DNA from: Hoeflea sp. BAL378
Lineage (GTDB): Bacteria > Pseudomonadota > Alphaproteobacteria > Rhizobiales > Rhizobiaceae
DNA: 64,000 bases
Direction of reading: 5' to 3'
Assembly (NCBI RefSeq): GCF_000759435.1
Contig: NZ_JRJG01000038.1
Coordinates: 62,001 to 126,000 of the forward strand
Shown here: positions 13,048 through 62,599 of the stretch, in pieces
Position numbering within the stretch: the first letter of the stretch is position 1
Layout of the letters: each line of letters opens with the position of its first letter
Notes under the pieces: generated by a model
Told to the model about the DNA's origin: nothing
The model's database searches: none
Seen by the model: the letters and a program-made list of their open reading frames with translations, nothing else
Position numbers and translations under genes: made by a program

Positions 13048-13050
13048 TCG

Positions 13051-16660: not shown

Positions 16661-16695
16661 GCAAAATTCTGGCCTGATCCGCACAATTATCGGCC
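16661..16695 (+). promoter_or_regulatory. Composite direct-repeat element, copy 2
   Basis: The upstream half GCAAAATTCTGGCCTGATCC (16661-16680) abuts GCACAATTATCGGCC (16681-16695), again with a 20-base period. The two halves also resemble each other: GCA, one variable base, AATT, then GGCC. It lies 70 bases before the start of the ornithine-cyclodeaminase-like gene, and the 21482 copy lies 74 bases before its gene. This near-equal spacing supports a promoter-proximal activator site. Confidence 0.55.
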
Positions 16696-16764
16696 GCTTC
16701 GGTCATTCCTTGTTGTGCCTCTTCATGACAGCTTTTGCAGATCAAAAACAGAAGAGTAGTCTCC

Positions 16765-40027: not shown

Positions 40028-41589
40028 GCTATTGTCTCTATCGTTTTGATTGTTCCGTCGAGCCCGTCCTGGGCATGATCCTTCACGGCGGAGGCCAGCA
40101 GAAGGCGCGCCCATTGGGCAGCGTCTTCGCGTTCGGCGATCCTGAGCGTCGTGCGCATGACCTTGTCGAACTTGGACAGGCCGCGAACATGGGTGTCCGA
40201 ATAGCCCTTGATGAGCCTGCGGAAGCGGAGGACCTCGACCCCCAGTTCATAATTCGTCTGAAGCAACATCTTCGCGTTTTCAAGCCATTCGTCGCGATGG
40301 GTAGTCTCTTCCAGATGGCGCAATGTCAACCGGCGGATCCGCTTCATGGAGCCAACGAAATAGAGCATCAGGAACCAGTGCAGCGAGTAGGTCTTGACCC
40401 GTCGGCCCTTGTTGATCCTGCGGTCCAGCCAGCGGTACAGGGCCTTGCGTGCGATAATCCAACGCGCCAGGCCGACTGGCAAGGCGGACACGAATTCCTC
40501 CATCCGCGGGTGCATGAATTCCGTCGTCTGCAGCACATGCTTGTCTGAAACGCCCAGTTCCTGCTCGATTCGCTGGCGGCGCTTGAGGCGCGTTTTCAGG
40601 CTTGCGACCCGCATCAGGTCGTCATAGGTCATGGCGTTGGCGACATATTTGGCGGCCTGCTCGGTGAAGAGCCAGCCCTTCGCCTCGCCCCCGGCCGAGC
40701 GGTCATGGGCGTGCAGCCGGGCGAGAAGATCGAGATACTCCTCGCCATAGTCGGTATCCTGGAAATCCACGACCTTCTTGAGCCCCAGAAAGGCCATCTC
40801 GTGCGCCTCCGGCGGCAGTTCGCTCCTGAGCCGCTGCAGCAGATGGTTGGCGCGGGGCGCCGCCAGACGTTCCGGCAAAGGCGGCTTCGCCGGGACGGCT
40901 GCGGGCTCTTCCTGCCGCGCCGGGCCGGACGAGGCGCGCGCATGGGCGGCATCGAATGTCCGAATGCTGGCTTCGACACCCTTTCCGCCTTCGCGGATGA
41001 CCGCATAATAGGCTTCCCGCTCGAAAGGCAGGGCGCCCGATGCCGCGAGGCTGCCGAACAGGGCCGCGGAAATCACGCTGCCGTTCTCGACGGCGATGGC
41101 GTTCATGTCGAAGATGATCTCGCGCAGGGCAGCGACGCCCACCGCGTCGGTCACGGCGGCGCTGTCGGCGATGCTGTCGCCCGGCGCCATTTTCTCCGAT
41201 ATGGCCAGGGACCTATGACTGGAGGCAATCAATGTGGTCCGTTCCGGCGTGACAATCCCGCGCAGGATCGATCGTCCCGCCTCCATGTATTCCGAGGCCA
41301 TGACCACGTCGACATCGCCGGGTGTCGGCATCTGCGCCAGGATCGGCTGCCGGCCGGCCTCGTCGGGCGGCATCATCTCGACATAGTAGATCGTCGCGCC
41401 GGTGCGTTGCGCCACGCCCGGGACCGATGTCGATTGGGCAACCCAGCCCTGGCTTTCCGCCAGGCTGACGATCCACCCGGTCAGCACGCCGCCGCCCTGA
41501 CCGCCCATGGCGACGATCGCGACGGAGATCGGGCGTTCCGTGGCAGGGGCAACGGCTTGCAGGTTCAGCTTGACGGTATCGTCCTTCAT
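40024..41589 (-). CDS. iorB: Indolepyruvate oxidoreductase, beta-type subunit (large form)
   Basis: The 521-residue subunit begins with the gamma-domain fold of 2-oxoacid:acceptor oxidoreductases (SVAIVAMGGQGGGVLTGWIVSLAESQGW, VPGVAQRTGATIYYVEM). It continues into a long C-terminal helical extension of the large IorB forms found in aerobic proteobacteria (about residues 260-521), two to three times the archaeal size. Together with IorA it decarboxylates arylpyruvates to arylacetyl-CoA. The start ATG 41589 lies 9 bases after the iorA stop; the open frame continues upstream but inside iorA. Confidence 0.9.
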   Translation of the reverse strand: MKDDTVKLNLQAVAPATERPISVAIVAMGGQGGGVLTGWIVSLAESQGWVAQSTSVPGVAQRTGATIYYVEMMPPDEAGRQPILAQMPTPGDVDVVMASEYMEAGRSILRGIVTPERTTLIASSHRSLAISEKMAPGDSIADSAAVTDAVGVAALREIIFDMNAIAVENGSVISAALFGSLAASGALPFEREAYYAVIREGGKGVEASIRTFDAAHARASSGPARQEEPAAVPAKPPLPERLAAPRANHLLQRLRSELPPEAHEMAFLGLKKVVDFQDTDYGEEYLDLLARLHAHDRSAGGEAKGWLFTEQAAKYVANAMTYDDLMRVASLKTRLKRRQRIEQELGVSDKHVLQTTEFMHPRMEEFVSALPVGLARWIIARKALYRWLDRRINKGRRVKTYSLHWFLMLYFVGSMKRIRRLTLRHLEETTHRDEWLENAKMLLQTNYELGVEVLRFRRLIKGYSDTHVRGLSKFDKVMRTTLRIAEREDAAQWARLLLASAVKDHAQDGLDGTIKTIETIA

Positions 41590-41597: not shown

Positions 41598-43751
41598 TCA
41601 CGCTTCGAAGCTTGCCGCAAGGCGGTGTTGACGGTTTTGCAGGAAGCGGATCACGGGCATGGTCAGGCTGCTTTTGAGTTTGTCCCAGAAGCTGGGGTTG
41701 TGAACGATGTCGGCCTGATAGAACGACGGACAGAGAACGGCGGCGTCTGCCACCTCGCCGCAATTGCCGCAGGCGACGCAGGTGTTGTCGATGGAGGCGA
41801 CCGGATCGTCGCGCAGCGGGTCTCCAAGATCCTTCACCGACAGGGACGGGCAGCCCGACAGCCGGATGCAGGCATGATCGCCGGTGCAGACGTCTTCATC
41901 GACGCCGAACCGGGCCGTCACCGTTCGCTTGCCGCCCTTGATCGCCTTGCTGATCTGCGGTTTCACCCGGCGTTGCTTGTTGAGCATGCACTCGGAAGAG
42001 GCCACGATGATCTTCGGCCCTTCCGCTTCAGTCGTCAGGGCTTCCTTGAGCACCGCGCGCATCTGGGTGACATCATAGGTGTGATCGATCTGGCGCACCC
42101 ATTTGGCGCCGATGCCCTTCACCGCGTCGACGATCGTGTTGTTGGTGTTGCGGCGCTTGTTGAACGCCCGGGACGAGAGAACGTCCTGCCCGCCGGTCGC
42201 GGAAGAGTAGTAGTTGTCGACAATCAGGAAGACGCCGTCGTGCTTGTTGAAGACGGCGTTGCCGATGCCGCTGGTCAGGCCGTTGTGCCAGAAGCCGCCG
42301 TCGCCCATGATCGCGATCGAGCGCTTGTCGGCCTTCACATTGAATGCCGCCGCCGAGGCGGCCCCCAACCCGTAGCCCATGGTTGTCGCGCCGATATTGA
42401 AGGGCGGCAGGATCGAGAACAGATGGCAGCCGATGTCGGCGGAGACATGATGCTGGCCGAGTTCCTCCTCGACGAGCTTCATCGCCGCGAAGATCGGCCG
42501 CTCGGGGCAGCCGGTGCACAGTCCCGGCGGCCGCGAAGGGACGACCCCCTTGAGCTTCTGGATGACGGGGTCGGCGAGGATCGGCTGGGATTCGGGCACC
42601 GGCGGCCGGTTGCCCAGTTGCACCGGATCGAAATCCCTGAGGAAGCGGCCGATGCCATCGCTCAGCACGGCCGCGGTGTAATCGCCGCCCATCGGCAAAT
42701 AGGCCTTGCCGCGGATCTTGGTCGGCGCCGACACCCGCGACAGCGCGGTGGAGATCGACTGCTCGATATATTCCGGCTGGCCCTCTTCGACGATCAGGAC
42801 CGCGTCCAGGCCGTCGCAGAATTCCTCGACTTCCGAATTGATGGTAGGATAGCCGACATTCATCACATAGATCGGGATCTTGGTGTTTCCGTAGGCGTCG
42901 CTCAGGCCCAGGAACTGCAGGGCGCGGATCAGGCTGTTGTACATCCCGCCCTGGGTGATGATCCCGGTCTTCCCGGTTTTTTCGCCGAAGAATTCGTTGA
43001 GCTTGTTGTCGCGGATGAAATTGATCGCGGCCGGCATGCGGTGCTTGATCTTCTCCTGCTCATGTTCGTAAGCGGCAGGCGGCAGCACGATCCGGTCGAG
43101 ATCGCGCTTCGGACTGTTGAGCGCATCCTTGAGCGTGAACTCCGGGCGCTTGTTGTCTTTGCAGACGAAGCTGCCGGTCATGTGGCAGGAGCGGACCCGC
43201 ACGGCCAGCATGACCGGCGTGTTGGATGCTTCCGAAAGCTCGTAGCCCTTTTCGATCAGGTTGACGATGCATTCGTGCTCGGGCCTCGGATCCAGCAGCC
43301 ACATCTGCGACTTCATCGCGAAGGCGTGGGTCCGTTCCTGCATGATGGAGGAGCCTTCGCCGTAATCCTCGCCGATGATCACCATCGCGCCGCCGGTGAC
43401 GCCGCCGGAGGCGAGATTGGCGAGGGCGTCGGAGGCGACGTTGGTCCCCACCGTTGACTTCCAGGCCACGGCGCCGCGCAGCGGATACATCACCGATGCC
43501 GAGAGCATTGCCGCAGCGGTGGCTTCGCTGGCCGAACTCTGAAAAGTCACGCCGAGCTCTTCGAGAATGTCGTTGGCGTCGGCCAGGACGTCCATCAGGT
43601 GCGAGATGGGAGAGCCTTGGTAGCCGCCGACATAGGACACGCCGGCCTGGAGAAGACCCTTTGTAATGGCAAGGATTCCTTCCCCCCGGAAAATGTCGCC
43701 TTCGCCGAGACGGAGATCCTCCACCTCTTTCGCAAATGAACGTTCAGCCAT
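41598..43751 (-). CDS. iorA: Indolepyruvate oxidoreductase, alpha-type subunit
   Basis: The 717-residue thiamine diphosphate enzyme has the pyrimidine-binding domain first (GEGILAITKGLLQAGVSYVGGYQGSP), a TPP/Mg site with GDGGFWHNGLTSGIGN, and a C-terminal ferredoxin-like segment. The cysteines are at about 622, 628, 634, 658, 661, 664 and 674 (DVCTGDHACIRLSGCPSL and CVACGNCGEVADAAVLCPS). It catalyses oxidative decarboxylation of aryl pyruvates from Phe, Tyr or Trp, passing electrons to ferredoxin or another acceptor. ATG 43751 follows TTGGAGA. It is divergent from the gentisate operon across 117 AT-rich bases. Confidence 0.92.
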   Translation of the reverse strand: MAERSFAKEVEDLRLGEGDIFRGEGILAITKGLLQAGVSYVGGYQGSPISHLMDVLADANDILEELGVTFQSSASEATAAAMLSASVMYPLRGAVAWKSTVGTNVASDALANLASGGVTGGAMVIIGEDYGEGSSIMQERTHAFAMKSQMWLLDPRPEHECIVNLIEKGYELSEASNTPVMLAVRVRSCHMTGSFVCKDNKRPEFTLKDALNSPKRDLDRIVLPPAAYEHEQEKIKHRMPAAINFIRDNKLNEFFGEKTGKTGIITQGGMYNSLIRALQFLGLSDAYGNTKIPIYVMNVGYPTINSEVEEFCDGLDAVLIVEEGQPEYIEQSISTALSRVSAPTKIRGKAYLPMGGDYTAAVLSDGIGRFLRDFDPVQLGNRPPVPESQPILADPVIQKLKGVVPSRPPGLCTGCPERPIFAAMKLVEEELGQHHVSADIGCHLFSILPPFNIGATTMGYGLGAASAAAFNVKADKRSIAIMGDGGFWHNGLTSGIGNAVFNKHDGVFLIVDNYYSSATGGQDVLSSRAFNKRRNTNNTIVDAVKGIGAKWVRQIDHTYDVTQMRAVLKEALTTEAEGPKIIVASSECMLNKQRRVKPQISKAIKGGKRTVTARFGVDEDVCTGDHACIRLSGCPSLSVKDLGDPLRDDPVASIDNTCVACGNCGEVADAAVLCPSFYQADIVHNPSFWDKLKSSLTMPVIRFLQNRQHRLAASFEA

Positions 43752-46786: not shown

Positions 46787-47833
46787 ATGTTACCCGATAA
46801 GGAATTTCCCCGTTTCAAGGCGGCTGCGGTGCAGGCCAGCCCGGTCTTTCTCGATGCCGCGGCAACGGCGAGAAAGGCCGCGGACCTGATCTCCGAAGCC
46901 GCCGGCAACGGGGCCCGCCTGATTGTGTTCCCCGAGGTCTTCATCCCCGGCTATCCCTATTGGAGCTGGATCACCGATCCGGTGACCGGCAGCGCCTGGT
47001 TCGAGAAACTGGTACGGGCTTCGGTGTTCCTGCCCGGTCCGGAAATCGAGACGGTTTGCGCCGCGGCCAGGGCAAACGACGCCTATGTGGTGATCGGCGT
47101 CAACGAACGAAGCCCGATCTCGCTTGGCGCTCTCTACAACACGCTGGTGTTCATCGGCCCGGATGGCGCCATCCTCGGCAAGCATCGCAAGCTTGTCCCG
47201 ACCTGGGCCGAAAAGCTCACCTGGACCGGCGGCGACGGATCCACCCTCAAGGTCTACGACACCGAGATCGGACCTCTCGGCGGGCTCGCCTGTGGCGAGA
47301 ACACCAACACCCTGGCGCGGTTTTCGCTGCTTGCCCAGGGCGAGCTGGTGCATGCGGCAAGCTACATCTCGCTGCCGGTGGCCCCACCCGATTACGACAT
47401 GGCCGAGGCGATCAAGCTGCGCGGGCAGTCGCACAGCTTCGAGGGCAAGGTCTTCACGATCGTCTCGACCTCGACCATCTCCGACGAGATCATCACCGAG
47501 ATGGAAAAGGTGCGGCCGGACGCACGCGCGCTGCTGGAACGCAAGTCGAGCGCGTTTTCGGGGATCATCGGGCCCGATGGCCGGGTCGTGGGCGACAGCC
47601 TTATCGATGACGAGGGGATCGTGTACGCCGAGATCGATCTGGCGCGCTGCATCCAGCCCAAGCAGATGCACGACATCATCGGGCACTACAACCGCTTCGA
47701 TGTCTTCCAGCTTCATCTGAATACCGCACCGCAAAGCGCCTTGGCGACAAAGCCCGCGCGACAGGAAGCCGATGGAGCGCCTGAAGGCGATCTGCCGTCG
47801 TCTGAGCCTCTTCACCTGGACAAACTCAAGTAG
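46787..47833 (+). CDS. Nitrilase (carbon-nitrogen hydrolase, branch 1 type)
   Basis: The 348-residue enzyme has the Glu-Lys-Cys triad: E50 in VFPEVFIPGYPYW, K135 in KHRKLVPTWAEKLTW and C169 in GGLACGENTNTLARF. CGENTN rather than CWE at the nucleophile is a pattern seen in aliphatic and arylaceto-nitrilases of rhizobia-like bacteria. It converts R-CN to the acid plus ammonia. AGGAG overlaps the aminotransferase stop. The C-terminal 30 residues are a disordered, Ala/Pro/Glu-rich tail, as in helical-filament nitrilases. Its presence suggests that the operon accepts a nitrile substrate or detoxifies one. Confidence 0.9.
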   Translation: MLPDKEFPRFKAAAVQASPVFLDAAATARKAADLISEAAGNGARLIVFPEVFIPGYPYWSWITDPVTGSAWFEKLVRASVFLPGPEIETVCAAARANDAYVVIGVNERSPISLGALYNTLVFIGPDGAILGKHRKLVPTWAEKLTWTGGDGSTLKVYDTEIGPLGGLACGENTNTLARFSLLAQGELVHAASYISLPVAPPDYDMAEAIKLRGQSHSFEGKVFTIVSTSTISDEIITEMEKVRPDARALLERKSSAFSGIIGPDGRVVGDSLIDDEGIVYAEIDLARCIQPKQMHDIIGHYNRFDVFQLHLNTAPQSALATKPARQEADGAPEGDLPSSEPLHLDKLK

Positions 47834-47848
47834 GGAAGGAACATTGCA

Positions 47849-48967
47849 ATGACCAATGCTGCACACAGCGATGACGTGCTCGGGCGCGCCCGTGTTGCGG
47901 ACAACGCGGAGCTGAAAGCCTATTATGACGATCTGGCACAGCTCGACACCGGCGCCCTCTGGACGGTCGCCAATTCGATTGAGCCTTGGGAGCCGACGCC
48001 GGTTTCCGATCCCGTTCTGTGGCGCAATTCGGATCTGCGCCACCAGGTGCTGCGCGCCATCGAGCTGGTCCGCCCCGAGGACGCCGGGCGGCGCGTGGTC
48101 TATCTGCGCAATCCCAAGCGCAAGGATGTCAGCGCCGCCTGCGGCTGGCTGTTCTCCGGCATCCAGGTGATGAAGCCGGGCGAGAAGGCCGGCGCGCACA
48201 AGCATGCGGCCTCCGCCTTGCGGTTCATCATGGAGGGCAAGGGCGCCTATACCATCGTCGACGGGCACAAGATGGAACTGGGCGGAAGAGACTTTGTGAT
48301 CACGCCCAACGGTACCTGGCACGAACATGGAATCGCCGAGGATGGCGAGATCTGCATGTGGCAGGACGGCTTGGACATCCCGCTGACCAATGCGCTGGAA
48401 GCCAATTTCTACGCCGTGCATCCCAACGACTACCAGACGACCAATCTTCCGGTGAACGGCAGCCCGCTGACCTACGGCGCACCGGGGCTGCTGCCGCTGA
48501 TGGACAAATGGGACAAGCCTTATTCGCCGCTGTTGCAGTATCGCTGGGAACCGACCTACGAGGCGCTCTTGAACTACGCAAAGGTCACCGACGGCTCGCC
48601 CTATGACGGCGTGATCATGCGCTACAGCAACCCGCATACCGGCGGCGACCCGATGCTGACCATGGGCGCCACGATGCAGCTCCTGCGTCCGTCTGAGCAC
48701 ACCCAGGCGCACCGCCACACCGGCAACATCATCTACCAGGTTGCCAAGGGGGAGGGCTATTCCGTCATCAACGGCAAGCGCTTCGACTGGAAGGAGAAGG
48801 ACATCTTCTGCGTTCCGCCGTGGATGTGGCACGAGCACTGCAACACCGCGACGGGCGACGATGCGTGCCTTTTCTCTTTCAATGATCTTCCTACCATGAA
48901 AAAGCTCGGCTTCTACGCCGAACAGGCGCTGAACGAAAATGACGGTCATCAGATCGTCAAGCAATAA
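47849..48967 (+). CDS. Gentisate 1,2-dioxygenase family bicupin
   Basis: The 372-residue dioxygenase has an N-terminal cupin with Fe(II) ligands H117 and H119 in AGAHKHAASALRFIMEGKGAYT and H158 or H160 in TPNGTWHEHG. A second cupin follows (QAHRHTGNIIYQVAKGEG). It closely fits gentisate 1,2-dioxygenase, which opens the ring of gentisate to maleylpyruvate. Salicylate or 1-hydroxy-2-naphthoate dioxygenases share the fold and cannot be excluded. The next two genes encode the hydrolase and isomerase expected for the product, which strongly favours gentisate. AGGGAAGG precedes the ATG. Confidence 0.88.
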   Translation: MTNAAHSDDVLGRARVADNAELKAYYDDLAQLDTGALWTVANSIEPWEPTPVSDPVLWRNSDLRHQVLRAIELVRPEDAGRRVVYLRNPKRKDVSAACGWLFSGIQVMKPGEKAGAHKHAASALRFIMEGKGAYTIVDGHKMELGGRDFVITPNGTWHEHGIAEDGEICMWQDGLDIPLTNALEANFYAVHPNDYQTTNLPVNGSPLTYGAPGLLPLMDKWDKPYSPLLQYRWEPTYEALLNYAKVTDGSPYDGVIMRYSNPHTGGDPMLTMGATMQLLRPSEHTQAHRHTGNIIYQVAKGEGYSVINGKRFDWKEKDIFCVPPWMWHEHCNTATGDDACLFSFNDLPTMKKLGFYAEQALNENDGHQIVKQ

Positions 48968-48988
48968 CGACAGTTTGGGAATCCAGAA

Positions 48989-49906
48989 ATGAAACTTGTA
49001 ACCTATCGTGCCGCGGCAGCGGCAGAAGGACGTCTTGGTGTTGTCTGGGACGGACTGGTCATCGACGTCGAGCGCCTCGGCCACGTCGTCGGGGAAGACT
49101 TTCCGACCTCGATGCTGGACCTGATCGACCAGGGTCCGGATGCCCTGGCGGCCTTGGCCCGCGCCATCGCCGAAACCGACGGCAAGCGCCCGGCCGGCAT
49201 CGCCGTGCCCGTCGAAAACGTGAAGATGCTGGCGCCCATTCCGCGCCCGCGCAAGAACATCTTCGGCATCGGCCTCAATTATGTCGAGCATGTCGCCGAA
49301 TCGGCGCGGACGCTCGACACTTCCAAGGAGCTTCCGGACAAGCCGGTGGTGTTCTCGAAACCGCCGACGGCCGTCATCGCCGACGGCGAGCCGATCCAGC
49401 ACAACGCCGCCATGACCCAGCAACTCGACTGGGAAGTCGAGCTGGCCGTGATCATCGGCAAGCGGGCGACCCGTATCTCCAAGGAAGACGCGATGAGCCA
49501 TGTCTTCGGCTATTCGGTCATCAACGACGTTTCGGCGCGCGACAACCGGCGGGCCGGACAGTGGATCTTCTCCAAGGGGCAGGACAGCTACGCGCCGTTC
49601 GGTCCGGCGATCGTGACGGCGGATGACATAGCCGACCCGCACAATCTCGTCCTGTGGCTCAAGAAGAACGGCGAGGAAAAGCAGCGCTCGAACACCAAGT
49701 TCCTGCTGTTCGATATTCCGACCCTGATCGCCGACCTGTCTTCGGGCATGACGCTGGAGCCCGGCGATATCATTGCCACCGGAACGCCCGCGGGCGTTGG
49801 CGCCGGACGCAGTCCGCAGGAATTCATGTGGCCCGGAGACGTCATCGAATGCGGCGTCGACGGGATCGGCGTGCTGCGCAATCCCGTCGTCAAGATCGGG
49901 GACTGA
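48989..49906 (+). CDS. FAH-family hydrolase, probable maleylpyruvate/fumarylpyruvate hydrolase
   Basis: The 305-residue protein has the fumarylacetoacetate-hydrolase core: NIFGIGLNYVEHVAE (catalytic H101), metal ligands E149 and E151 in DWEVELAVIIG, D180 in VINDVSARDNR and GDIIATGTPAGVG. It cleaves the C-C bond of acylpyruvates. Because a maleate isomerase follows and no glutathione-dependent maleylpyruvate isomerase is present, direct hydrolysis of maleylpyruvate to maleate and pyruvate is the best-supported role. Fumarylpyruvate hydrolysis is the alternative. One base separates its stop from the next ATG. Confidence 0.87.
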   Translation: MKLVTYRAAAAAEGRLGVVWDGLVIDVERLGHVVGEDFPTSMLDLIDQGPDALAALARAIAETDGKRPAGIAVPVENVKMLAPIPRPRKNIFGIGLNYVEHVAESARTLDTSKELPDKPVVFSKPPTAVIADGEPIQHNAAMTQQLDWEVELAVIIGKRATRISKEDAMSHVFGYSVINDVSARDNRRAGQWIFSKGQDSYAPFGPAIVTADDIADPHNLVLWLKKNGEEKQRSNTKFLLFDIPTLIADLSSGMTLEPGDIIATGTPAGVGAGRSPQEFMWPGDVIECGVDGIGVLRNPVVKIGD

Positions 49907-54222: not shown

Positions 54223-54257
54223 TTGACAGGCATTATTTCATATATAAAACTATGCAA
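54223..54257 (+). promoter_or_regulatory. Promoter/operator of the Rieske oxygenase cluster
   Basis: The 342-base divergent gap (53934-54275) is AT-rich from about 54150. TTGACA at 54223-54228 is a candidate -35 box. TTTCATATATAAA at 54236-54248 is the exact reverse complement of the element at 8982 and continues to ATGCAA in both places. A TATAAA overlaps the element but is only 14 bases from TTGACA, so the -10 box is uncertain. An operator overlapping the core promoter implies repression. Confidence 0.5.
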
Positions 54258-54275
54258 AACCATAAAGTGTGTGAG

Positions 54276-55220
54276 ATGCGGACCAACACCTACCAGCTCC
54301 GGTCATCGGCGTATGAGACCGTTGACATAAAGAGGCTTGAATTCGTCGGCGTGGACGGTGCGGAAGTGGCCTGGTCCGCGGGTGCGCATGTTCGCGTGCA
54401 CCTGACCGACGGAACCAGCCGGGCCTATTCGCTGCTCGCTCTGCCCGGGCCGGACTTGGGAGGCCTGGTGCTGGGCGTTCTGCTTGAGAAGGGCGGCCGG
54501 GGCGGGTCCCGCTTCATGCACGCCCTCAAGCCGGGCGACAAGGTCCGGATCTCGGACCCGGTCAACCAGTTCGCCCTGCAGGACCATGACGGGCCCGCAA
54601 TCCTGATCGCCGGTGGCATCGGGATCACGCCGATCCTGTCGATGGCCGACGAGCTTTCGCGCGCGGGCCGGCGGTTCGACGTGCATTACGCGGGACGAAG
54701 CGAGGGCAGGCTGGCGTTTGTCGACGACATGAAACGGATCTGCGGCGACCGGCTGCATCTCCATTACGACGATCAGGACACCGCGCTCGATATCGCCGCC
54801 GTGCTGAAAGCGGCAGCCAGGAACGCCCACGTCTATTTCTGCGGGCCGACCGGCATGATCGAGGCCGTCAAGGCGATCGCGGGCAGTCAGGGATTCCCGC
54901 CGGACCAGCTCCACTACGAGCTCTTCTCAGCCGAGATCGACCACGCATCGGACACGGCCTTCGATGTTGTCGTGAAGAGTTCGGGGCAGGTGGTTCACGT
55001 CCCCGCCGACAAGACGATCATCGAGGCGCTGGAGGAGGCGGGTCTCGACCCGCTCTACGACTGCAAGCGGGGCGATTGCGGGATCTGCCAGTGCGAGGTG
55101 ATCGAGGGCGAGCCCGATCACCGGGACATCATTCTCACCGACGCCGAAAAGGCTTCGGGGAAAGTCATGCAGATTTGTGTTTCGCGGTCGAAGACGCCGC
55201 GACTGGTTCTGGATATTTGA
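54276..55220 (+). CDS. VanB/phthalate-dioxygenase-type oxygenase reductase
   Basis: The 314-residue reductase has an FMN/FAD-binding barrel (SAGAHVRVHLTDGTSRAYSL, with R-x-Y-S at 49-52) and an NAD domain (GPAILIAGGIGITPILSMADEL). A C-terminal plant-type [2Fe-2S] ferredoxin domain has cysteines at about 263, 268, 271 and 301 (DCKRGDCGICQC and QICVS). It passes electrons from NADH directly to the Rieske oxygenase, so no separate ferredoxin is needed. I prefer ATG 54276; an ATG at 54252 would add eight residues but lies within the promoter element. It lies 18 bases before the oxygenase gene. Confidence 0.92.
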   Translation: MRTNTYQLRSSAYETVDIKRLEFVGVDGAEVAWSAGAHVRVHLTDGTSRAYSLLALPGPDLGGLVLGVLLEKGGRGGSRFMHALKPGDKVRISDPVNQFALQDHDGPAILIAGGIGITPILSMADELSRAGRRFDVHYAGRSEGRLAFVDDMKRICGDRLHLHYDDQDTALDIAAVLKAAARNAHVYFCGPTGMIEAVKAIAGSQGFPPDQLHYELFSAEIDHASDTAFDVVVKSSGQVVHVPADKTIIEALEEAGLDPLYDCKRGDCGICQCEVIEGEPDHRDIILTDAEKASGKVMQICVSRSKTPRLVLDI

Positions 55221-55238
55221 TCCGCAAGGGAGGTTGTC

Positions 55239-56579
55239 ATGGACCGATACCGTGGGAATGCGAAAGCCATACGAGACCTGGTGAAAGGCTATGCCGTTCA
55301 CCGGGATACCTATGTGGACAAGGAGATTTTCGACCTGGAGATGGAAAGCCTGTTTCCAAACACCTGGGTCTATGTCGGCCATGCCAGCCAGTTGAAGAAT
55401 ACGGGCGATTTCATCACCTCGAAAATCGGCCACCAGCCGCTGCTGATCTCCCGCCATCGCGACGGCGAGATCTACGTCCTGCACAACCGGTGCCCGCACA
55501 AGGGCGTCAAGATCGCCTCCGAGGCCTGCGGCAACACCGGCAAGTTCTTCCGCTGTCCCTATCACGCCTGGTCGTTCAAGACCGACGGATCGATTCTCGC
55601 GATCCCGCTGAAAAAGGGATACGAGGGAACCGGGTTCGATACGGATGCCGCATCCGAAGGACTGGCCCGCGTCAGGAACGTCAAGATCTATCGCGATTTC
55701 ATCTTCGCCCGGCTCGCCGACAACGGGCTCTCCTTTGAAGATTATTTCGGCGAGTCCCTGTCGACCATCGACAACATGATCGACCGGTCTCCCGAAGGCA
55801 AACTCGAGATCATTGCCGCGCCGATCCGCTATATGCACCAGTGCAACTGGAAGATGCTGGTCGACAACCAGACCGACACTTGCCATCCGATGGTCGCCCA
55901 TGAAAGCTCCGCCGGCACGGCGGTCAGCGTCTGGGAGCGCGAGAAGCACAAGTTCACCGAAACCCCGATGGCCGTGCAGCTCTATGCGCCGTTCATGTCG
56001 CCCTACGAGTTCTATGAGGGAGCGGGCATCCGCGTCTGGCCGAACGGCCATGGCCATACCGGCGTCTCTGGCTCGATCCACCAGGACTATGACGACGTGT
56101 CCGAATACATGACCAGGATGGAGGCGGCCTATGGACCCGAAAGGGCCAGGGCGATCCTGGGCGATGTCCGCCACAACACGATCTATTTCCCCAATATCAT
56201 GGTCAAGGGGCCGGTTCAGATCCTGCGCAACTTCATCCCCCTCGCCGTCGACAAGACCCTGGTCGAGAGCTTTGTCTTCCGTCTGGTCGGGGCGCCGGAC
56301 AAGCTATATGAGCGATCTCTTATGTACAACCGCTTCATCAATGCGCCCACCTCGATCGTCGGCCACGACGACCTCGAAATGTACGAGCGGGCCCAGGAAG
56401 GGCTGCGCTCGGACGGCAATGAATGGATCGACCTTCACCGCCTGTACGAGGCGGACGAGCCGCGCGACGCGAACGAGGTGGTCAACGGAACCTCCGAGCG
56501 GCAGATGCGCAACCAGTTCTATGCCTGGAGCAAGTTCATGACCCTCAACATGGATCAAAGCGTGGAGGCCGCGGAATGA
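55239..56579 (+). CDS. Rieske non-heme iron ring-hydroxylating oxygenase, alpha subunit
   Basis: The 446-residue subunit has the Rieske motif C85-x-H87 in NRCPHKGV and C106-x2-H109 in RCPYHAWSF. The mononuclear iron site N/D209-213, H216 and H221 lies in MLVDNQTDTCHPMVAH. A beta subunit follows, so it is an alpha3beta3-type oxygenase. Salicylate 5-hydroxylase, anthranilate and benzoate-type dioxygenases share this layout. The substrate is unknown; the adjacent gentisate genes make a hydroxybenzoate-type substrate conceivable, but the CoA-dependent downstream genes argue for something else. Confidence 0.92.
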   Translation: MDRYRGNAKAIRDLVKGYAVHRDTYVDKEIFDLEMESLFPNTWVYVGHASQLKNTGDFITSKIGHQPLLISRHRDGEIYVLHNRCPHKGVKIASEACGNTGKFFRCPYHAWSFKTDGSILAIPLKKGYEGTGFDTDAASEGLARVRNVKIYRDFIFARLADNGLSFEDYFGESLSTIDNMIDRSPEGKLEIIAAPIRYMHQCNWKMLVDNQTDTCHPMVAHESSAGTAVSVWEREKHKFTETPMAVQLYAPFMSPYEFYEGAGIRVWPNGHGHTGVSGSIHQDYDDVSEYMTRMEAAYGPERARAILGDVRHNTIYFPNIMVKGPVQILRNFIPLAVDKTLVESFVFRLVGAPDKLYERSLMYNRFINAPTSIVGHDDLEMYERAQEGLRSDGNEWIDLHRLYEADEPRDANEVVNGTSERQMRNQFYAWSKFMTLNMDQSVEAAE

Positions 56580-57049
56580 AACCGGACCGGATTGTGGACT
56601 TCATCTATGATGAGGTCGCGGCTCTCGACGAGATGCGCTGGGAAGACTGGCTGGCGTTGTTTCACGAGGAGGGGCGCTACTGGATGCCGCTCGAATGGAA
56701 GCAGCAGGATCCGATCATGCAGCCGTCGCTGATGTATGAAGACCGGCTGCTGCTGACGGTGCGGGTCGAGCGCCTTGCCGGCGAACGCACCTTCAGCCAG
56801 AAGCCCAAGAGCCGTTGCCACCACCTGCTCGAGCGGCCGCGCGTCCTGTCGCTCGGCGAGGACGACGGCGTCTGCAAGGCCAGGACCTCCTTCATCTACA
56901 CCGAAACCCGCGGCGATCAGCTCGAGCGCTATTCGGGCTGGGTGTCGCATCACCTGGTCGACGTGGACGGAGCGCTGAAGATCAAGCTCAAGCGGATCGA
57001 CCTGATCAATTTCGATGCCCCCTTCGGCAATCTCCAACTCTTCATCTAG
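56576..57049 (+). CDS. Ring-hydroxylating oxygenase, beta subunit
   Basis: The 157-residue NTF2-fold subunit has DFIYDEVAALDEMRWEDWLALFHEEGRYWMPLEW and SRCHHLLERPRVL, with C-terminal KLKRIDLINFDAPFGNLQLFI, all typical of BenB/NagH-like small subunits. It provides structure to the oxygenase. ATG 56576 overlaps the alpha stop (ATGA). Confidence 0.92.
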   Translation: MKPDRIVDFIYDEVAALDEMRWEDWLALFHEEGRYWMPLEWKQQDPIMQPSLMYEDRLLLTVRVERLAGERTFSQKPKSRCHHLLERPRVLSLGEDDGVCKARTSFIYTETRGDQLERYSGWVSHHLVDVDGALKIKLKRIDLINFDAPFGNLQLFI

Positions 57050-57057
57050 GGCGGCGC

Positions 57058-58671
57058 ATGTCCCACCAAACCGTTTTCGAACGCTTCTCTGACGCCGTCC
57101 ATCGGCGTGGCGACGCGCCCTTTCTGCAGGTTCTGGACGAGACCGCCCGCATCTACGCGATCCCGGCCGGTGAAGTCTCCTATGCCGAAATGGGGGAACG
57201 CGTCGGCCGCTGGGCCAAGCGGTTCGCCGGGGCCGGCTACGGGGCAGGGCACCGCGTCGGATTGCTGCTGCAGAACCGGCCGGTCTATCTGGAGATCTGG
57301 CTGGCGCTCAACAGCCTCGGCGCTTCGGTCGTGCCGATCAATCCCGACCTGCGGCTGGCGGAGCTCGAATACCTGGCCGCCCACTCGGAAATGATCCTGG
57401 CGATCGTCCTGCCCGAGAGGGCAGACGAAGTGCGCCAGGCGGCCACAAATGCGGGTCTCACCCTGCCGGTCATCTCCCCCGGAGACACGCTGCCCGAAGC
57501 GACCCTCCCCGCTTCGGGCGGCGTGAATCTGGGGAGTTCCACCGAATGCGCCCTACTCTACACGTCCGGAACCACCGGCCAGCCCAAGGGCTGCATCCTG
57601 AGCAACGAGTACTTCCTGCATTCCGGCGACTGGTATGAGACGACCGGCGGATATATCAGCCTGCGCAAGGACTGCGAGCGGATGCTCACGCCCCTGCCGG
57701 TGTTCCACATGAATGCCATGGCCGTCTCGGTCATGGCGATGATCACGGTTGGCGGCTGCATCATCCTTCTGGACCGGTTTCATCCCCGGAGCTGGTGGCA
57801 GTCGGTGCGCGAGAGCCGCGCCACGGTGGTTCACTATCTGGGCGTCATGCCGTCGATGCTGAGCGGCGCAGAACCATCGCCGGCGGACCGGGATCATTCG
57901 GTGAGGTTCGGGTTCGGCGCCGGCGTGGACAAGAAGCTGCACGAGCCCTTCGAACAGCGCTTCGGCTTCCCGCTCATCGAGGCCTGGGCGATGACGGAAA
58001 CCGGCAGCGGCGGGGTGATCTGCGCTTTTGAAGAGCCGCGCAAGACCGGCACGTCCTGCTTCGGCCGCGCCGAGCCGGACGTCGAAGTGCGGGTGGTTGA
58101 CGATGCCGGGCACGACGTCGAGGGCGATGCGCCCGGCGAACTGCTGGTGCGGCGGGCCGGGGACAATCCCCGCTACGGGTTCTTTTCCGGATATCTGAAG
58201 AACCGGCAGGCCACCGACGAGGTCTGGGAAGGGGGCTGGTTTCACACCGGCGATATCGTCTCGCGGGATGCGGATGGCTCGTTTCATTTCATCGACCGCA
58301 AGAAGAACGTCATCCGCCGGTCGGGCGAAAACATCGCCGCGGTGGAAGTTGAGACCATCCTTAATCGCCATCCCGACATCCGCATGACCGCGGCTGCGGC
58401 GACGCCGGACGAGACCCGCGGCGACGAGGTTGCCGTCGTCATCGTCCTTGGCGCCGGCGACGGGTCGGCCGGCAAGGCGGAGGAGATCGTGCAGTGGGCG
58501 CTGGACCAGATGGCCTATTACAAGGTCCCGGGCTGGGTGTCCTTCGTCCCGGAACTGCCCTTGACCGCCACGCAGAAAATCCTGCGGGGAAAGGTCAAGG
58601 ACCTGGTCGCCGACCTCATGGCCAGGGGCGAGTTCCATGACACGCGCGCGCTCAAGAGGCGGCGGGTTTGA
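57058..58671 (+). CDS. AMP-dependent acyl-CoA synthetase/ligase
   Basis: The 537-residue adenylate-forming enzyme has the P-loop LLYTSGTTGQPKGCIL near residue 167, AWAMTETGSGG, the hinge aspartate region WFHTGDIVSRDADGSFHFIDRKKNVIRRSGENI and the C-terminal catalytic lysine in LTATQKILRGK. It activates a carboxylic acid as its CoA thioester. Its placement after a Rieske oxygenase suggests that a hydroxylated or dearomatised acid is converted to CoA for thiolytic or beta-oxidation-like steps. The related crotonobetaine/carnitine-CoA ligase branch is similar in sequence. The next gene overlaps its stop. Confidence 0.92.
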   Translation: MSHQTVFERFSDAVHRRGDAPFLQVLDETARIYAIPAGEVSYAEMGERVGRWAKRFAGAGYGAGHRVGLLLQNRPVYLEIWLALNSLGASVVPINPDLRLAELEYLAAHSEMILAIVLPERADEVRQAATNAGLTLPVISPGDTLPEATLPASGGVNLGSSTECALLYTSGTTGQPKGCILSNEYFLHSGDWYETTGGYISLRKDCERMLTPLPVFHMNAMAVSVMAMITVGGCIILLDRFHPRSWWQSVRESRATVVHYLGVMPSMLSGAEPSPADRDHSVRFGFGAGVDKKLHEPFEQRFGFPLIEAWAMTETGSGGVICAFEEPRKTGTSCFGRAEPDVEVRVVDDAGHDVEGDAPGELLVRRAGDNPRYGFFSGYLKNRQATDEVWEGGWFHTGDIVSRDADGSFHFIDRKKNVIRRSGENIAAVEVETILNRHPDIRMTAAAATPDETRGDEVAVVIVLGAGDGSAGKAEEIVQWALDQMAYYKVPGWVSFVPELPLTATQKILRGKVKDLVADLMARGEFHDTRALKRRRV

Positions 58672-59840
58672 CCCGGCGCCCGGCCGCCTATGACGGCGTC
58701 GCGGTCTGCTGCCCCGTCACCGTGCCCTATGTCCGCTACTCGCCTGAAACCGCGCATTGGTGGGCCGGCGCCGCGTTGAGCGCGCTCGGCGAACGCACTG
58801 GTCTCGGGCCGGCCGATATCGACGGGTTCTGTTTCGCCAGCTTTTCGTCGGGACCCGACAGCGTGGTCGGCATGATCCAGCATCTGGGGCTCTGCCCGAG
58901 ATGGATGGACCACATTCCCACAGGCGGCGCCAGCGGGGTCATGGCACTCCGACGTGCGGCGCGCGCCGTCCAGTCGGGCGACGCCGACCTTGTCGTCTGC
59001 CTTGCCGCCGACACCAACCAGGTCGACAGCTTCCGCCAGACCCTTGCCGGGTTCTCGCGGTTTTCCCAAGACGCGATGTATCCCTATGGCTTTGGCGGGC
59101 CGAACGCGACCTTCGCGCTGATCACCGACAATTTCATGCGCACCTATGGGGTCGGGCGCGAAAGCTTCGGCAAGCTCTGCGTGGCGCAACGGGCAAACGC
59201 CCTGTCCAACCCGCATGCCTTGATGAAGCGCCCGCTGAGCCTTGACCAATACATGTCGTCCCGGGCGATCAGCGACCCGGTACATCTTCTCGATTGCGTC
59301 ATGCCCTGCGCGGGCGCCGAAGCCTTCATCGTAACAACGGAAGAGAAGGCGGCATCCCTGGGGCTTGCTGCAGCCTCGATCAAGGCGACGATCGAGCGCC
59401 ACAACGCCTTTCCCGAAGACCCCATCCAGGTCCGTGGCGGATGGGTCAGGGATGTTGACACGCTGTGGGAGGCAGCCGGCTGCAGTCCCGAAGACATGGA
59501 TACGATCCAGTTCTACGACGATTATCCGGTGATCGTGGCCATGCAGATGGAGGATCTCGGCTTCTGCCGGAAGGGCGAAGTCGCGGGCTTCATCGACAGG
59601 CATGATTTCACGATCTCGGGATCGTTGCCGCTCAACACCAATGGCGGCCAGCTCTCCGCAGGCCAGGCGGGTGCGGCCGGCGGGTTCCAGAACGTCACCG
59701 AGGCGTTGAGGCAGGTGCTGGGGTGCCCGCTGGGCGACCAGGTTCCCGACGCCAGGCGGGCGCTGGTGTCGGGATTTGGACTTGTGAATTACGACCGCGG
59801 CGTCTGCACCGGCGCCGCCGTGCTGGAAGGGGCGACCTGA
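58668..59840 (+). CDS. Thiolase-like protein without nucleophilic cysteine
   Basis: The 390-residue protein has the thiolase fold (GERTGLGPADIDGFCFASFS, GDADLVVCLAADTN, LPLNTNGGQLSAGQAGAAGGFQNVTEA). Where canonical thiolases have a nucleophilic cysteine in CxSG it has GGASG (residues 86-90). That pattern is seen in SCPx-like or nondecarboxylating thiolase-family proteins that need a DUF35 partner. The HDAF histidine region reads FYDDYP. The start is TTG 58668 overlapping the ligase stop (TTGA). The DUF35 partner is the next gene. BbsB, half of benzoylsuccinyl-CoA thiolase, is a functional analogue. Confidence 0.85.
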   Translation: MTRRPAAYDGVAVCCPVTVPYVRYSPETAHWWAGAALSALGERTGLGPADIDGFCFASFSSGPDSVVGMIQHLGLCPRWMDHIPTGGASGVMALRRAARAVQSGDADLVVCLAADTNQVDSFRQTLAGFSRFSQDAMYPYGFGGPNATFALITDNFMRTYGVGRESFGKLCVAQRANALSNPHALMKRPLSLDQYMSSRAISDPVHLLDCVMPCAGAEAFIVTTEEKAASLGLAAASIKATIERHNAFPEDPIQVRGGWVRDVDTLWEAAGCSPEDMDTIQFYDDYPVIVAMQMEDLGFCRKGEVAGFIDRHDFTISGSLPLNTNGGQLSAGQAGAAGGFQNVTEALRQVLGCPLGDQVPDARRALVSGFGLVNYDRGVCTGAAVLEGAT

Positions 59841-59841
59841 C

Positions 59842-61080
59842 ATGAGCAATCCCCTTTCTCCCCCTAAGCGCAAGGATCCGCTGACGCCGTCCCGGCTGGG
59901 CCATGTCCCGCCGCGTCTGCGCAGCCGCGCCGCCAAGGCGATGGCGGTCCGCGCCGGGCAGGGGCGGTTCGTCCTGCAGGTCTGCGAGGGGTGCAGCGAA
60001 GCGACCTATCCGCCCAGAGACCGCTGCCCTCACTGCTGGGGGGAGTTGCGCTGGGCCGACCAGCCGCAGACCGCGGTCCTGCTGGCGGAAACCGTCGTGC
60101 GCGCAACCACCGACAACTTCTTTCGCGAACATCTGCCCTGGCGGATCGGGACGGTTCAGCTCGACGCCGGCCCCACCGCGGTGGCGCATCTTCACGGCGA
60201 CGTCGCGATCGGTGACCAGGTGAGAATGCGCCTGGTCCTGGATCGCGGCGGCAATCCCGCCCTGTTCGCCCTGCCGTTGAAGGAGACACCGCATATGCAG
60301 GATGACCCGCAACTGCGCGTCTTCACCTCGGCGCCGAAGCACCGCCGTATTCTCGTCACCGACGGACGGACCAGGCTTGGGCAGGATGTCGCGCAGGCGC
60401 TGCTTGCGGCCGGCGCGGGCACGGTCTTTCTTGGCAATTCCGACCCGCTGCTCCGCCATGACGGGGAGGAGTGGATCGCGTCGACGCCCAATATCGACAT
60501 GGTGCCGCTGGACCTGACCGACAGCCGCAGCGTGAGCGAGCTGGCCGGCACGCTTGGCGGCCGCGTCGATATCATCGTCAACACCGCAGGCTATGTCCGC
60601 CCCGGGGGCGTGTCGTCCGGCAGCAGGCTTGCGACGCTGCAGACGGCCATGGACATCAATGCCTTCGGGCTGCTGCGGCTGGCGCAGTCCTTTGGCCCGG
60701 CCCTGGGCGCGCGCTCGGATGACGGCGTGAATTCCGCCGCCGCCTTCGTCGACATCAATTCCATCTATGCCATGACCGGCAACGCGGGATTTGCCGGGTT
60801 CGCGGCAAGTGCCGCGGCCAGGCTGTCGCTGGTCGCCGGTCTTCGCGGCGAGATGGCGTCCGTCGGCATCCGTGTTGCGAGCGTGCTGTGCGGACCGATT
60901 GACGATGCGTGGCATCAGGCGGTGCCGCCGCCCAAGGTCGCGACATCCAGGGTCGCGCAGGCTGTCGTCCAGGTGCTTCAGGACGGGTTGGAACAGGTGT
61001 GCGTCGGCGATGTCGCCGAGGACCTGGCGGCGCGCTGGCAGCAGGATCCATTTTTGACCATCCGAGAGGAAAACCTATGA
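59842..61080 (+). CDS. Fusion of DUF35 zinc-ribbon/OB protein with a degenerate SDR domain
   Basis: The 412-residue protein has two parts. Residues about 40-150 form a DUF35 module: a zinc ribbon with C48, C51, C62 and C65 (CEGCSEATYPPRDRCPHC), then an OB-fold (AETVVRATTDNFFREHLPWR to VRMRLVL). Residues about 168-405 form a short-chain dehydrogenase fold with NTAGY and MDINAFGLLRLAQ. The glycine-rich turn is TDGRTRLG rather than TGxxxGxG. Counting 13 from S307, the catalytic tyrosine is F320 and the lysine is A324. The SDR half therefore looks catalytically dead and may dimerise with the live SDR at 61874. The fusion recalls BbsA plus BbsC joined. Confidence 0.85.
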   Translation: MSNPLSPPKRKDPLTPSRLGHVPPRLRSRAAKAMAVRAGQGRFVLQVCEGCSEATYPPRDRCPHCWGELRWADQPQTAVLLAETVVRATTDNFFREHLPWRIGTVQLDAGPTAVAHLHGDVAIGDQVRMRLVLDRGGNPALFALPLKETPHMQDDPQLRVFTSAPKHRRILVTDGRTRLGQDVAQALLAAGAGTVFLGNSDPLLRHDGEEWIASTPNIDMVPLDLTDSRSVSELAGTLGGRVDIIVNTAGYVRPGGVSSGSRLATLQTAMDINAFGLLRLAQSFGPALGARSDDGVNSAAAFVDINSIYAMTGNAGFAGFAASAAARLSLVAGLRGEMASVGIRVASVLCGPIDDAWHQAVPPPKVATSRVAQAVVQVLQDGLEQVCVGDVAEDLAARWQQDPFLTIREENL

Positions 61081-61868
61081 GCAATTCCGGTTCGTTGTGC
61101 GCTGAGATGGCCGCGGCCCTGGTCAGCGGAAAGCTGAAATGCGTCGACTTGACCAATACACTGTCCCCCGATTTTCCGGTGATTGTGTTGCCCGCCGAGT
61201 TCGGCCAGTGCGCGCCTTTCCGGGTTGAGACCGTGTCGCGCTACGACGACAACGGCCCGGCCTGGTACTGGAACAACATCAGCATGAATGAACATACCGG
61301 CACCCATTTCGATGCGCCGGCTCACTGGGTGACGGGCAGGGACCTGCCGTCCAACACGGTCGATGCAGTCCCGGTCAGCGACTTTGTCGCGCCTGCGGTT
61401 GTCGTCGATATTTCCGCGGAAGCTGCCGCGGATGCGGATTTCGTGCTGACCCGGGCCTTTCTCGAGGACTGGGAAACCCGCAACGGCAAGATCCCGCCCC
61501 GGCACTGGGTCGCCCTGCGCACCGACTGGTACAAGCGGGTCGGCACCCCGGACTATCTCAACCTCAAGAAGGACGGCGCGCATTCGCCCGGTCCGGATGC
61601 AGGCGCCATGGAGTTCCTGGTGCATGAGCGGGACTGCATCGGCCTGGCTGTCGAGACGGTGGGAACCGATGCAGGACAGGGCTCCCATTTCAACCCGCCG
61701 ATGCCCGCCCATTCGATCCTGCACGGCAATGGCCGCTATGGGCTCCAGTGTCTCACCAATCTTGACAAGCTGCCGACCTTCGGCGCGATGATCGTTGCGG
61801 CACCGTTGAAAATTCAGGGCGGCTCGGCCAGCCCCTTGCGCGTCTTCGCGCTCTATGACGCGGAGTAA
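61077..61868 (+). CDS. Cyclase-family metal-dependent hydrolase
   Basis: The 263-residue protein has the family zinc motif H-x-G-T-H-x-D-x-P-x-H at H73, H77, D79 and H83 (NEHTGTHFDAPAHW), preceded by CVDLTNTLSPDFPV. Known members are kynurenine formamidase, isatin hydrolase and (putative) cyclases. They cleave amide or lactam bonds or open rings. ATG 61077 overlaps the fusion gene's stop (ATGA), so it acts in the same pathway. It may open a lactone or N-heterocycle generated after oxygenation; the substrate is unknown. Confidence 0.88.
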   Translation: MSNSGSLCAEMAAALVSGKLKCVDLTNTLSPDFPVIVLPAEFGQCAPFRVETVSRYDDNGPAWYWNNISMNEHTGTHFDAPAHWVTGRDLPSNTVDAVPVSDFVAPAVVVDISAEAAADADFVLTRAFLEDWETRNGKIPPRHWVALRTDWYKRVGTPDYLNLKKDGAHSPGPDAGAMEFLVHERDCIGLAVETVGTDAGQGSHFNPPMPAHSILHGNGRYGLQCLTNLDKLPTFGAMIVAAPLKIQGGSASPLRVFALYDAE

Positions 61869-61873
61869 GGCGC

Positions 61874-62599
61874 ATGGCGGGGCGGACGACGCTGATAACC
61901 GGCGGCAATTCCGGGATCGGGGCGGCAATCGCACAACGGCTGCTGGCCGCCGGCGAGGCGGTCGTCTCCCTAGGCCTGGAGCTGCCCGGCTGGGAGCATG
62001 AGAAGCTCTCGGGCTATGCCGCCGATCTCACCGATGCGGCCGCGACAGCCGAGATCGCCGCACGGATCGCCGCCGACCACAGGGTCAGCGCACTTGTGCA
62101 CAATGCCGGCATGATCCTGCCCAATCTGATTGCCGATGCGAAGCCCGAGGATGTTCTCACGCTCGCCCAGCTGCATCTGGCGGCCCCGCTGGCGCTGACG
62201 CAGGCGATGCTGCCGGGAATGAAGGAGAGCGGCCAGGGCCGCATCCTGTTCATCAGTTCCCGGGCCTCGATGGGGATGCCGACCCGCTCCGCCTATGCCT
62301 CCACCAAGGCCGGCGTGCATGGCCTTGCCCGGACCTGGGCGCTCGAACTGGCAGGCCAGGGCATCACCGTCAACGTCATCGCTCCGGGACCGGTGAAGAC
62401 CGAAAATTTCTGGGGCATCGTGCCGAAGGGCGGGGAACTCGAGGACAAGATCGCCAACTCCGTGCCGGTCAGGCGCATCGGCACGGCGGACGATATCGCC
62501 AATGCCGCCCTGTTCTTCCTCGACCCGAAGGCGAGCTTCGTGACCGGCCAGGTGCTCTATGTCTGTGGCGGAACCAGCCTGGGCGGGCTTGGAAGCTGA
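61874..62599 (+). CDS. Short-chain dehydrogenase/reductase, catalytically intact
   Basis: The 241-residue SDR has the cofactor motif TGGNSGIG (residues 9-16), HNAGM, and the catalytic triad S128, Y141 and K145 in FISSRASMGMPTRSAYASTK. The C-terminus VTGQVLYVCGGTSLGGLGS is standard. It oxidises or reduces a hydroxy/keto substrate with NAD(P)(H). It lies five bases after the cyclase gene and is last in the plus-strand cluster. With the dead SDR domain at 59842 it could form a BbsCD-like heterodimer. Confidence 0.92.
   Translation: MAGRTTLITGGNSGIGAAIAQRLLAAGEAVVSLGLELPGWEHEKLSGYAADLTDAAATAEIAARIAADHRVSALVHNAGMILPNLIADAKPEDVLTLAQLHLAAPLALTQAMLPGMKESGQGRILFISSRASMGMPTRSAYASTKAGVHGLARTWALELAGQGITVNVIAPGPVKTENFWGIVPKGGELEDKIANSVPVRRIGTADDIANAALFFLDPKASFVTGQVLYVCGGTSLGGLGS

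Follow-up and report, generated by a model that had tools for sequence, protein, structure and literature searches.

A DUF35-pseudo-SDR fusion in a predicted auxin degradation operon of Hoeflea sp. BAL378, a likely partner of a proposed thiolase-fold retro-aldolase

Why would a bacterium keep a dehydrogenase fold without catalytic residues, and fuse it to a DUF35 module? The question is raised by one gene of Hoeflea sp. BAL378, found in a stretch of 64,000 nucleotides (contig NZ_JRJG01000038.1, positions 62,001 to 126,000). We call this stretch the window, and all coordinates refer to it. The gene (59842..61080, forward strand) joins a zinc ribbon/OB module to a short-chain dehydrogenase/reductase (SDR) fold. 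By their content and order, the genes at 54252-62599 are iadCDEFGHIJ, an iad-type operon for the aerobic degradation of indole-3-acetate (IAA, auxin), and the fusion is IadH. We consider it likely that the thiolase-fold protein IadG and the DUF35 half of IadH form a retro-aldolase for the coenzyme A (CoA) thioester of dioxindole-3-acetate (DOAA), with the SDR half as a non-redox scaffold. The operon type, the name iadH and its deletion phenotype are known; the fusion architecture and the step assignment appear to be new. In the open-licence papers searched, we found no description of a DUF35-SDR protein or of a retro-aldol step in the iad pathway, and no paper naming the domain make-up of IadH. 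An earlier note on this DNA knew of no described fusion of this kind, which agrees with our search as to the domain make-up, while the gene itself is already named.

The product of 412 amino acids comes from a single open reading frame, with its ATG at 59842 and its stop at 61078-61080. The zinc ribbon and OB fold take up residues 1-150 approximately, and the SDR fold residues 166-412. Pfam recognizes zf-ChsH2 (38-68), OB_ChsH2_C (71-131) and adh_short (170-355), all above cut-off. In a second scan, to which 50 of the 114 family members were given, the three domains matched in 50/50 (E <= 0.001). The zinc ligands C48, C51, C62 and C65 (ribbon stretch 59983..60036, forward strand) are cysteines in 114/114 members. 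The AlphaFold2 model has a predicted local distance difference test (pLDDT) score of 90.9 and a predicted template modelling (pTM) score of 0.90. Its SDR half superposes on PDB 5u4s_B (TM normalised by target 0.92, root mean square deviation 1.9 Å, identity 28%), which confirms the fold; 5u4s is also the best PDB sequence for the fusion profile. The longest fold alignment among the 50 listed has 279 columns. None of the best 60 of the 539 PDB profile matches reaches the DUF35 half. Searched alone, this half has 6ok1_B, ChsH2(DUF35), as its best PDB match (E 2.1e-5). The architecture that the earlier note described, a four-cysteine module joined to an SDR fold, is consequently well founded.

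Residues were counted in an alignment of 114 loci (L048 cut at 390 residues), of which 78 were left after removing members at least 90% identical. In the profile alignment of IadH with IadJ, the live SDR of the operon, F320 sits on Y141 and A324 on K145. These two residues (codons 60799..60813, forward strand) replace the Tyr-x3-Lys motif. The catalytic Tyr and Lys occur together in 0/78 non-redundant members, and the Tyr column holds Tyr in 15/114. The cofactor turn TGxxxGxG is altered as well. More precisely, its first Gly is present in 0/78 sequences, the second in 1/78 and the third in 41/78. In the full set, the first position is Asp in 107/114 and Gly in none, and the second is Gly in 2/114. 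Both losses had been read correctly by the earlier note, and the SDR half lacks the two marks of an active classical SDR. As a control, IadJ keeps TGxxxGxG, Tyr and Lys in 24/24 homologues aligned. The note had also called this live SDR complete, with S128, Y141 and K145. Tyr and Lys stand; however, the conserved Ser is S129 (24/24) and not S128 (6/24).

Intact catalytic residues in another register were considered and rejected. The spacing between S307 and F320 is 13, the classical SDR spacing from Ser to Tyr. There is no Tyr-x3-Lys at any place of the window IadH, and the motif appears in 3/114 family members, at unrelated places. The mean pairwise identity of the 78 sequences is 0.540 in the SDR half and 0.556 in the DUF35 half. 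R253, R291, P364 and K365 are invariant (78/78), and W357 is present in 77/78. Conservation is thus similar in the two halves, and the SDR half shows invariant positions of its own, so selection probably maintains it for a non-redox function.

The fusion is a real family, and neither chance nor an assembly artefact, because full-length homologues recur in 26 of 201 genomes (the own genome and 200 relatives). There are 28 such places, three of them in the own genome, and those outside it are 41-51% identical. In the GTDB scan, the best 80 loci were kept; all of them are matches of nearly full length (44-67% identical), and the record titles come from alpha-, beta- and gammaproteobacteria. The wider GTDB figure, at least 500 places at E <= 1e-3, possibly counts ordinary SDRs too. 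Likewise, 36 plasmid records have a match, with coverage of at least 80% in 34. In the annotated plasmid records, among the matches listed, iadH carries the label 'SDR family NAD(P)-dependent oxidoreductase' (for example SPO_RS20475 of Ruegeria pomeroyi DSS-3), and iadG the label 'thiolase family protein'.

The genes around the fusion, all on the forward strand, indicate the pathway. An iadC-like gene (54252..55220) encodes an FAD/NAD(P)H-2Fe-2S oxygenase reductase of the PDR/VanB type (Pfam Fer2, NAD_binding_1), and its position is the same in the loci of R. pomeroyi, Variovorax and Roseibium. It is followed by iadD (55239..56579), the Rieske oxygenase large subunit, with matches to PDB 9o71 (E 1.5e-162) and 7yls/8h2t (E 2.4e-162). 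The small subunit iadE (56576..57049) overlaps iadD by ATGA, and was assigned by Pfam (Ring_hydroxyl_B) and gene order only. Then comes iadF (57058..58671), an AMP-binding acyl-CoA ligase by Pfam and the proposed maker of dioxindole-3-acetyl-CoA, with its place and role as given in PMC12633357. Our query sequences for iadE and iadF started one codon earlier, at 56573 and 57055. The thiolase-fold gene iadG (58668..59840) adjoins the fusion, and the ATG of iadI (61077..61868) overlaps the iadH stop. IadI belongs to the isatin hydrolase family (PF04199), with isatin hydrolase A, PDB 5nna/5nnb, as match (E ~5e-105). Finally, iadJ (61874..62599) is the live SDR dehydrogenase. The earlier note placed the thiolase and the live SDR on the two sides of the fusion; this is correct for the thiolase-fold gene, but the PF04199 gene, which the note does not mention, lies between the fusion and iadJ.

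Given the Rieske genes upstream, the isatin hydrolase gene and the published gene order, we assign these genes to an iad operon. The order C-D-E-F-G-H-I-J is found at 54252-62599, and the iad operon of Variovorax paradoxus CL14 has the same eight genes in the same order. PMC12633357 identifies PDB 9o71 as IadDE from V. paradoxus CL014, and the gene numbers that appear in PMC10374108 fit the order of the window genes. Compared with three Variovorax loci (L096, L117, L132), the identities are 60-63% for IadG, 56-58% for IadF, 54% for IadD, 53-55% for IadI, 50-53% for IadJ, 47-48% for IadH, 45-49% for IadE and 44-45% for IadC; CL14 itself was compared through IadD (9o71) alone. A benzoate pathway, with the Rieske genes and a BenD-like live SDR, was dropped after the IadD match. 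In contrast with CL14, the window copy has no MarR-like or ABC (ATP-binding cassette) substrate-binding gene found beside it, each sought with one representative query; the sole MarR match of the window is 26% identical, at 39346-39077. Tripartite tricarboxylate-type transporter genes, recognized by annotation reading with no family match, lie upstream instead. A MarR regulator is frequent at iad loci, and it does not define their chemistry.

In Variovorax, iadC-iadK2 convert IAA to anthranilate, and IadJ is the dehydrogenase that yields C10H9NO4, DOAA; it works ahead of CoA activation, two steps before IadG (PMC12633357). Anthranilate falls when iadF, G, H, I or J is deleted, and a compound with the DOAA formula accumulates in the iadF, G, H and I deletions (PMC12633357). 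In Roseibium aggregatum IAM 12614 (L131), the hydrolase directly after the fusion matches isatin hydrolase A over 249/249 residues, with zero mismatches in the alignment. Isatin hydrolase A was crystallised with isatinate (5NNB; PMC6117287). Because IadI is of the isatin hydrolase family and this match adjoins the Roseibium fusion, the step of IadG and IadH should deliver isatin.

IadG resembles the aldolases that work with a DUF35 partner. By sequence, its best PDB matches are 9myr (E 4e-48), 6ok1 (E 1e-38) and 4u4e. By fold, its model (pLDDT 83.6, residues 125-143 below 50) is closest to 9myr, 'Sal-Shy(DUF35) aldolase', followed by 6ok1, 'Ltp2-ChsH2(DUF35) aldolase', and the Pyrococcus thiolase 7yvy. 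The active Cys of BbsB (7pxp_C) aligns, in our reading of the alignment, with Gly87 of IadG. This column is Gly in 107/109 IadG homologues and a gap in two. The earlier note called the protein cysteine-less; in fact it has 12 cysteines, and only the nucleophilic one is missing. The motif YDDY (Y283-D-D-Y286) is invariant in 109/109 homologues and 76/76 non-redundant ones, with Y283 as the motif Tyr. Ltp2 carries YDHF and Sal YDCY, with a shared Tyr (PMC12329534). IadG has in common with this class the motif Tyr, the missing nucleophile and a DUF35 partner with zinc ligands. The DUF35 of IadH probably acts on IadG, by analogy with Shy for Sal and ChsH2 for Ltp2 (PMC11321319, PMC12329534), and here the idea of the earlier note, a DUF35 that serves the neighbouring thiolase-fold protein, has precedents.

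Neighbouring genes were counted by tblastn. From the 114 loci, 27 with short flanks were left out, and the remaining 87 gave 62 after removing those at least 90% identical. IadG is near the fusion in 62/62 loci and abuts it in 61/62, and IadI is near in 61/62 and abuts it in 59/62. IadJ and the Rieske gene are each near 47/62 fusions, and IadJ was not found near 15/62. Both are present in 45 loci, neither in 13, and one alone in 4. Six genomes with the fusion, IadG and IadI (G037, G063, G096, G080, G053 and G137; 98-100% complete) have no IadJ (E <= 1e-40) and no IadD (E <= 1e-60). By gene neighbourhood, IadG, IadH and IadI make up the conserved unit, and IadJ goes with the oxygenase and not with the fusion.

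Searched from the side of IadG (E <= 1e-100, 201 genomes), 27 of 31 places are beside a full-length fusion, and 26 abut it; in G188, IadG lies 1.2 kb from the fusion. The other four are two contig ends, one stand-alone DUF35 and one strongly diverged fusion. More precisely, in G035 (L142) a stand-alone DUF35 adjoins a 60% identical IadG, with no SDR half within 16 kb at E 1e-5. In G011:C31 (L141), a strongly diverged SDR half is next to a 51% identical IadG. Sulfitobacter sp. THAF37 has the fused pair side by side with a second IadG (58%) and a stand-alone DUF35 (this second pair is L050). These cases suggest that what IadG keeps as its partner is the DUF35 and not the SDR half.

From these elements, the following course can be proposed. 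IadCDE would oxidise IAA, and IadJ would dehydrogenate the product to DOAA, which IadF would convert to its CoA thioester. Dioxindole-3-acetyl-CoA belongs to the beta-hydroxyacyl-CoAs, the kind of substrate on which DUF35-dependent aldolases act. IadG would dock on the DUF35 half of IadH, with Tyr283 acting as a base on the C3 hydroxyl, and the pair would split DOAA-CoA into isatin and acetyl-CoA by a retro-aldol reaction. IadI would then open isatin to isatinate. Retro-aldol cleavage proceeds without oxidation or reduction, so no dehydrogenase is needed, which fits a dead SDR. The SDR half would bind no dinucleotide and perform no dehydrogenation, and would be kept as a structural or docking scaffold. 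Most likely, IadG-IadH is a two-subunit enzyme that cuts the side chain off auxin to leave isatin.

Several observations weigh against this assignment. The Lys column of the SDR half still holds Lys in 24/114 members, each with Phe at the Tyr place, and Ser is retained at the catalytic Ser position in 102/114. In IadG, the third motif residue is Asp285 in 109/109 homologues, and neither the His plus distant Tyr of Ltp2 nor the Cys of Sal is found. By the second catalytic residue IadG is neither of them, though it may work alike. Many lower-ranked fold matches of IadG are titled thiolases, BbsB included, therefore the likeness of fold alone does not fix the reaction. An IadH-IadJ contact is possible in the strains bearing iadJ. 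The main weak point concerns the product. Dioxindole has the formula C8H7NO2, and isatin is C8H5NO2. C8H7NO2 builds up when iadI is deleted, and likewise when a strain expresses the set minus this gene, from which PMC12633357 infers a reductive removal. Dioxindole and isatin are both reported in V. paradoxus (PMC9613470). Our guess is that dioxindole is isatin reduced off-pathway.

In the published assignment, the only one met in the papers searched, the ketothiolase IadG, the alcohol dehydrogenase IadH and IadF remove the acetyl side chain reductively to give C8H7NO2 (PMC12633357, a 2025 preprint). It agrees with the accumulation of this compound without iadI, and of the DOAA formula in the four deletions, and with the generic plasmid annotations. 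Nevertheless, the roles of IadG and IadH are annotation-based, by the authors' own words in that preprint. A dehydrogenase is hard to reconcile with an IadH where Tyr plus Lys never occur together and the dinucleotide Gly motif is gone, and a ketothiolase with an IadG that has Gly in place of the nucleophile. Dioxindole would also need re-oxidation before an isatin hydrolase could use it. We give this assignment little probability, and the same low weight goes to the model of the earlier note, a fused BbsA/BbsC-like subunit whose dead SDR pairs with IadJ and whose DUF35 holds the thiolase, in one channel. Both SDR genes share one operon, IadJ is often near the fusion, and its best PDB sequence is BbsD (7pcs_B, E 2.5e-33), with BbsC (7pcs_A, E 1.4e-29) listed too. 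However, BbsC is not among the best 60 of the 539 PDB matches for the fusion profile. In the published pathway (PMC12633357), IadJ precedes IadF, so a product passed straight on to IadG would bypass the ligase. IadG lacks the nucleophile that BbsB has, and therefore should not run the BbsB thiolysis. The six genomes of at least 98% completeness without IadJ at E <= 1e-40, and the way IadJ follows the Rieske gene, disfavour an obligate pairing of the BbsC/BbsD type. As the main explanation, this model was rejected.

The SDR half might instead be a dying remnant, whose sole role is to help the DUF35 fold. Loci where the SDR half next to an IadG relative is absent or strongly diverged (L139, L141, L142, L050) point in this direction. 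The main family does not, with halves of nearly equal conservation and residues invariant in the SDR half, so that we regard a remnant as unlikely, if slightly less so than the two previous proposals. A more tentative extension of the scaffold model, which we hold as possible though doubtful, is that the dead SDR half is a selected hub, an old dehydrogenase domain that was added to the DUF35 of the retro-aldolase and now docks IadI, the following enzyme, or IadF, the preceding one, with isatin passed on unreleased. The bare IadG-IadH-IadI core of genomes without IadCDE or IadJ would then serve bacteria that feed on DOAA made from auxin by plants or by other microbes.

Besides the iad operon of V. 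paradoxus, the closest known systems include the steroid aldolases Sal-Shy and Ltp2-ChsH2. They share with IadG-IadH a thiolase fold without the nucleophilic Cys, a Tyr-Asp-x-Tyr/Phe motif and a fused DUF35 partner. Shy, a DUF35 plus MaoC, links a hydratase to Sal, and ChsH2, a MaoC plus DUF35, does so for Ltp2 (PMC11321319, PMC12329534). The fused domain differs, a MaoC hydratase there and a dead SDR in IadH, as do the motifs (YDHF/YDCY there, YDDY in IadG) and the substrates, steroids there and a proposed oxindole CoA ester here. BbsAB and BbsCD, of anaerobic toluene degradation, have a DUF35 with a thiolase-fold protein, and their gene set includes an inactive SDR alongside an active one (BbsCD). 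On the other hand, their redox logic is different, IadG has no active Cys compared with 7pxp_C, and the SDR half of IadH is not specifically BbsC-like. The ibuprofen genes ipfABDEF (pIBU218), named from record order and PMC9195938, also combine a Rieske oxygenase, a CoA ligase, the thiolase-fold IpfD (YDAF, with the Tyr kept) and the OB-fold IpfE. Unlike IadH, IpfE (132 amino acids) is a stand-alone OB-fold protein with no IadH match at E 1e-3, IpfD is 28% identical to IadG, and the annotated neighbours include no SDR half and no isatin hydrolase. An ibuprofen-type pathway was dropped for the window, since IpfA, B, D and F show no more than 25-28% identity and an isatin hydrolase belongs to the window cluster.

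Bacterial auxin degradation shapes root growth, and it is being engineered into plant-associated bacteria. A redox-free retro-aldol step, if true, changes the cofactor bill of the pathway and explains isatin as the substrate of the next enzyme. With IadH, an SDR pseudoenzyme would join the domains that DUF35 links to thiolase-fold aldolases.

Complete iadC-J sets are present in the marine R. pomeroyi DSS-3, Sulfitobacter and Roseibium, with iadC falling outside the stretch covered in one. On the megaplasmid of R. pomeroyi DSS-3 (L049), the full set at 8431-16749 has generic annotation, and its gene content predicts IAA degradation. A second iad set is present in the own genome, seemingly split over two contigs (G000:C73 and C78; L046, L143), with a 66% MarR-like match and a 38% match like a tripartite ATP-independent periplasmic (TRAP) binding protein, labels taken from L053. 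The genome has also a third IadG-IadH pair, at G000:C38:133962-136324, with no IadI found beside that pair.

An iadFGHI-like core without iadCDE or iadJ nearby is found in L024/L071, L038, L041, L044 and L065. A salicylyl-CoA 5-hydroxylase/oxidoreductase-like gene is present in L071, and L044 has a gene for an Ohr-type peroxiredoxin; by clustering, genes like these occur in L065 and L041. Such loci are perhaps users of already oxidised auxin. On plasmid pJP4 (L140), 4457-7607, by tfdA, there are an acyl-CoA synthetase, a thiolase-fold protein with YDDF and a stand-alone OB-fold protein; the last two may be another DUF35-dependent aldolase pair.

Two other groups of genes lie upstream in the window. 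On the reverse strand, 40030-41538 and 41628-43382 encode an alpha/beta pair like indolepyruvate ferredoxin oxidoreductase. Relatives of the alpha gene, and in several loci of both genes, are near iad genes in Variovorax- and Reyranella-type loci. Isatinate, as an aromatic 2-oxo acid, may be a substrate of the pair, or the pair may feed indolepyruvate into the pathway. At 46838-49906, nitrilase-like, gentisate/5-aminosalicylate 1,2-dioxygenase-like and fumarylacetoacetate-hydrolase-like genes stand in a row, with an EutA-like gene next. They suggest a route for anthranilate via gentisate-like ring cleavage. Sulfitobacter sp. THAF37 has a like-named set next to iad, and so, judged by eye, does Celeribacter.

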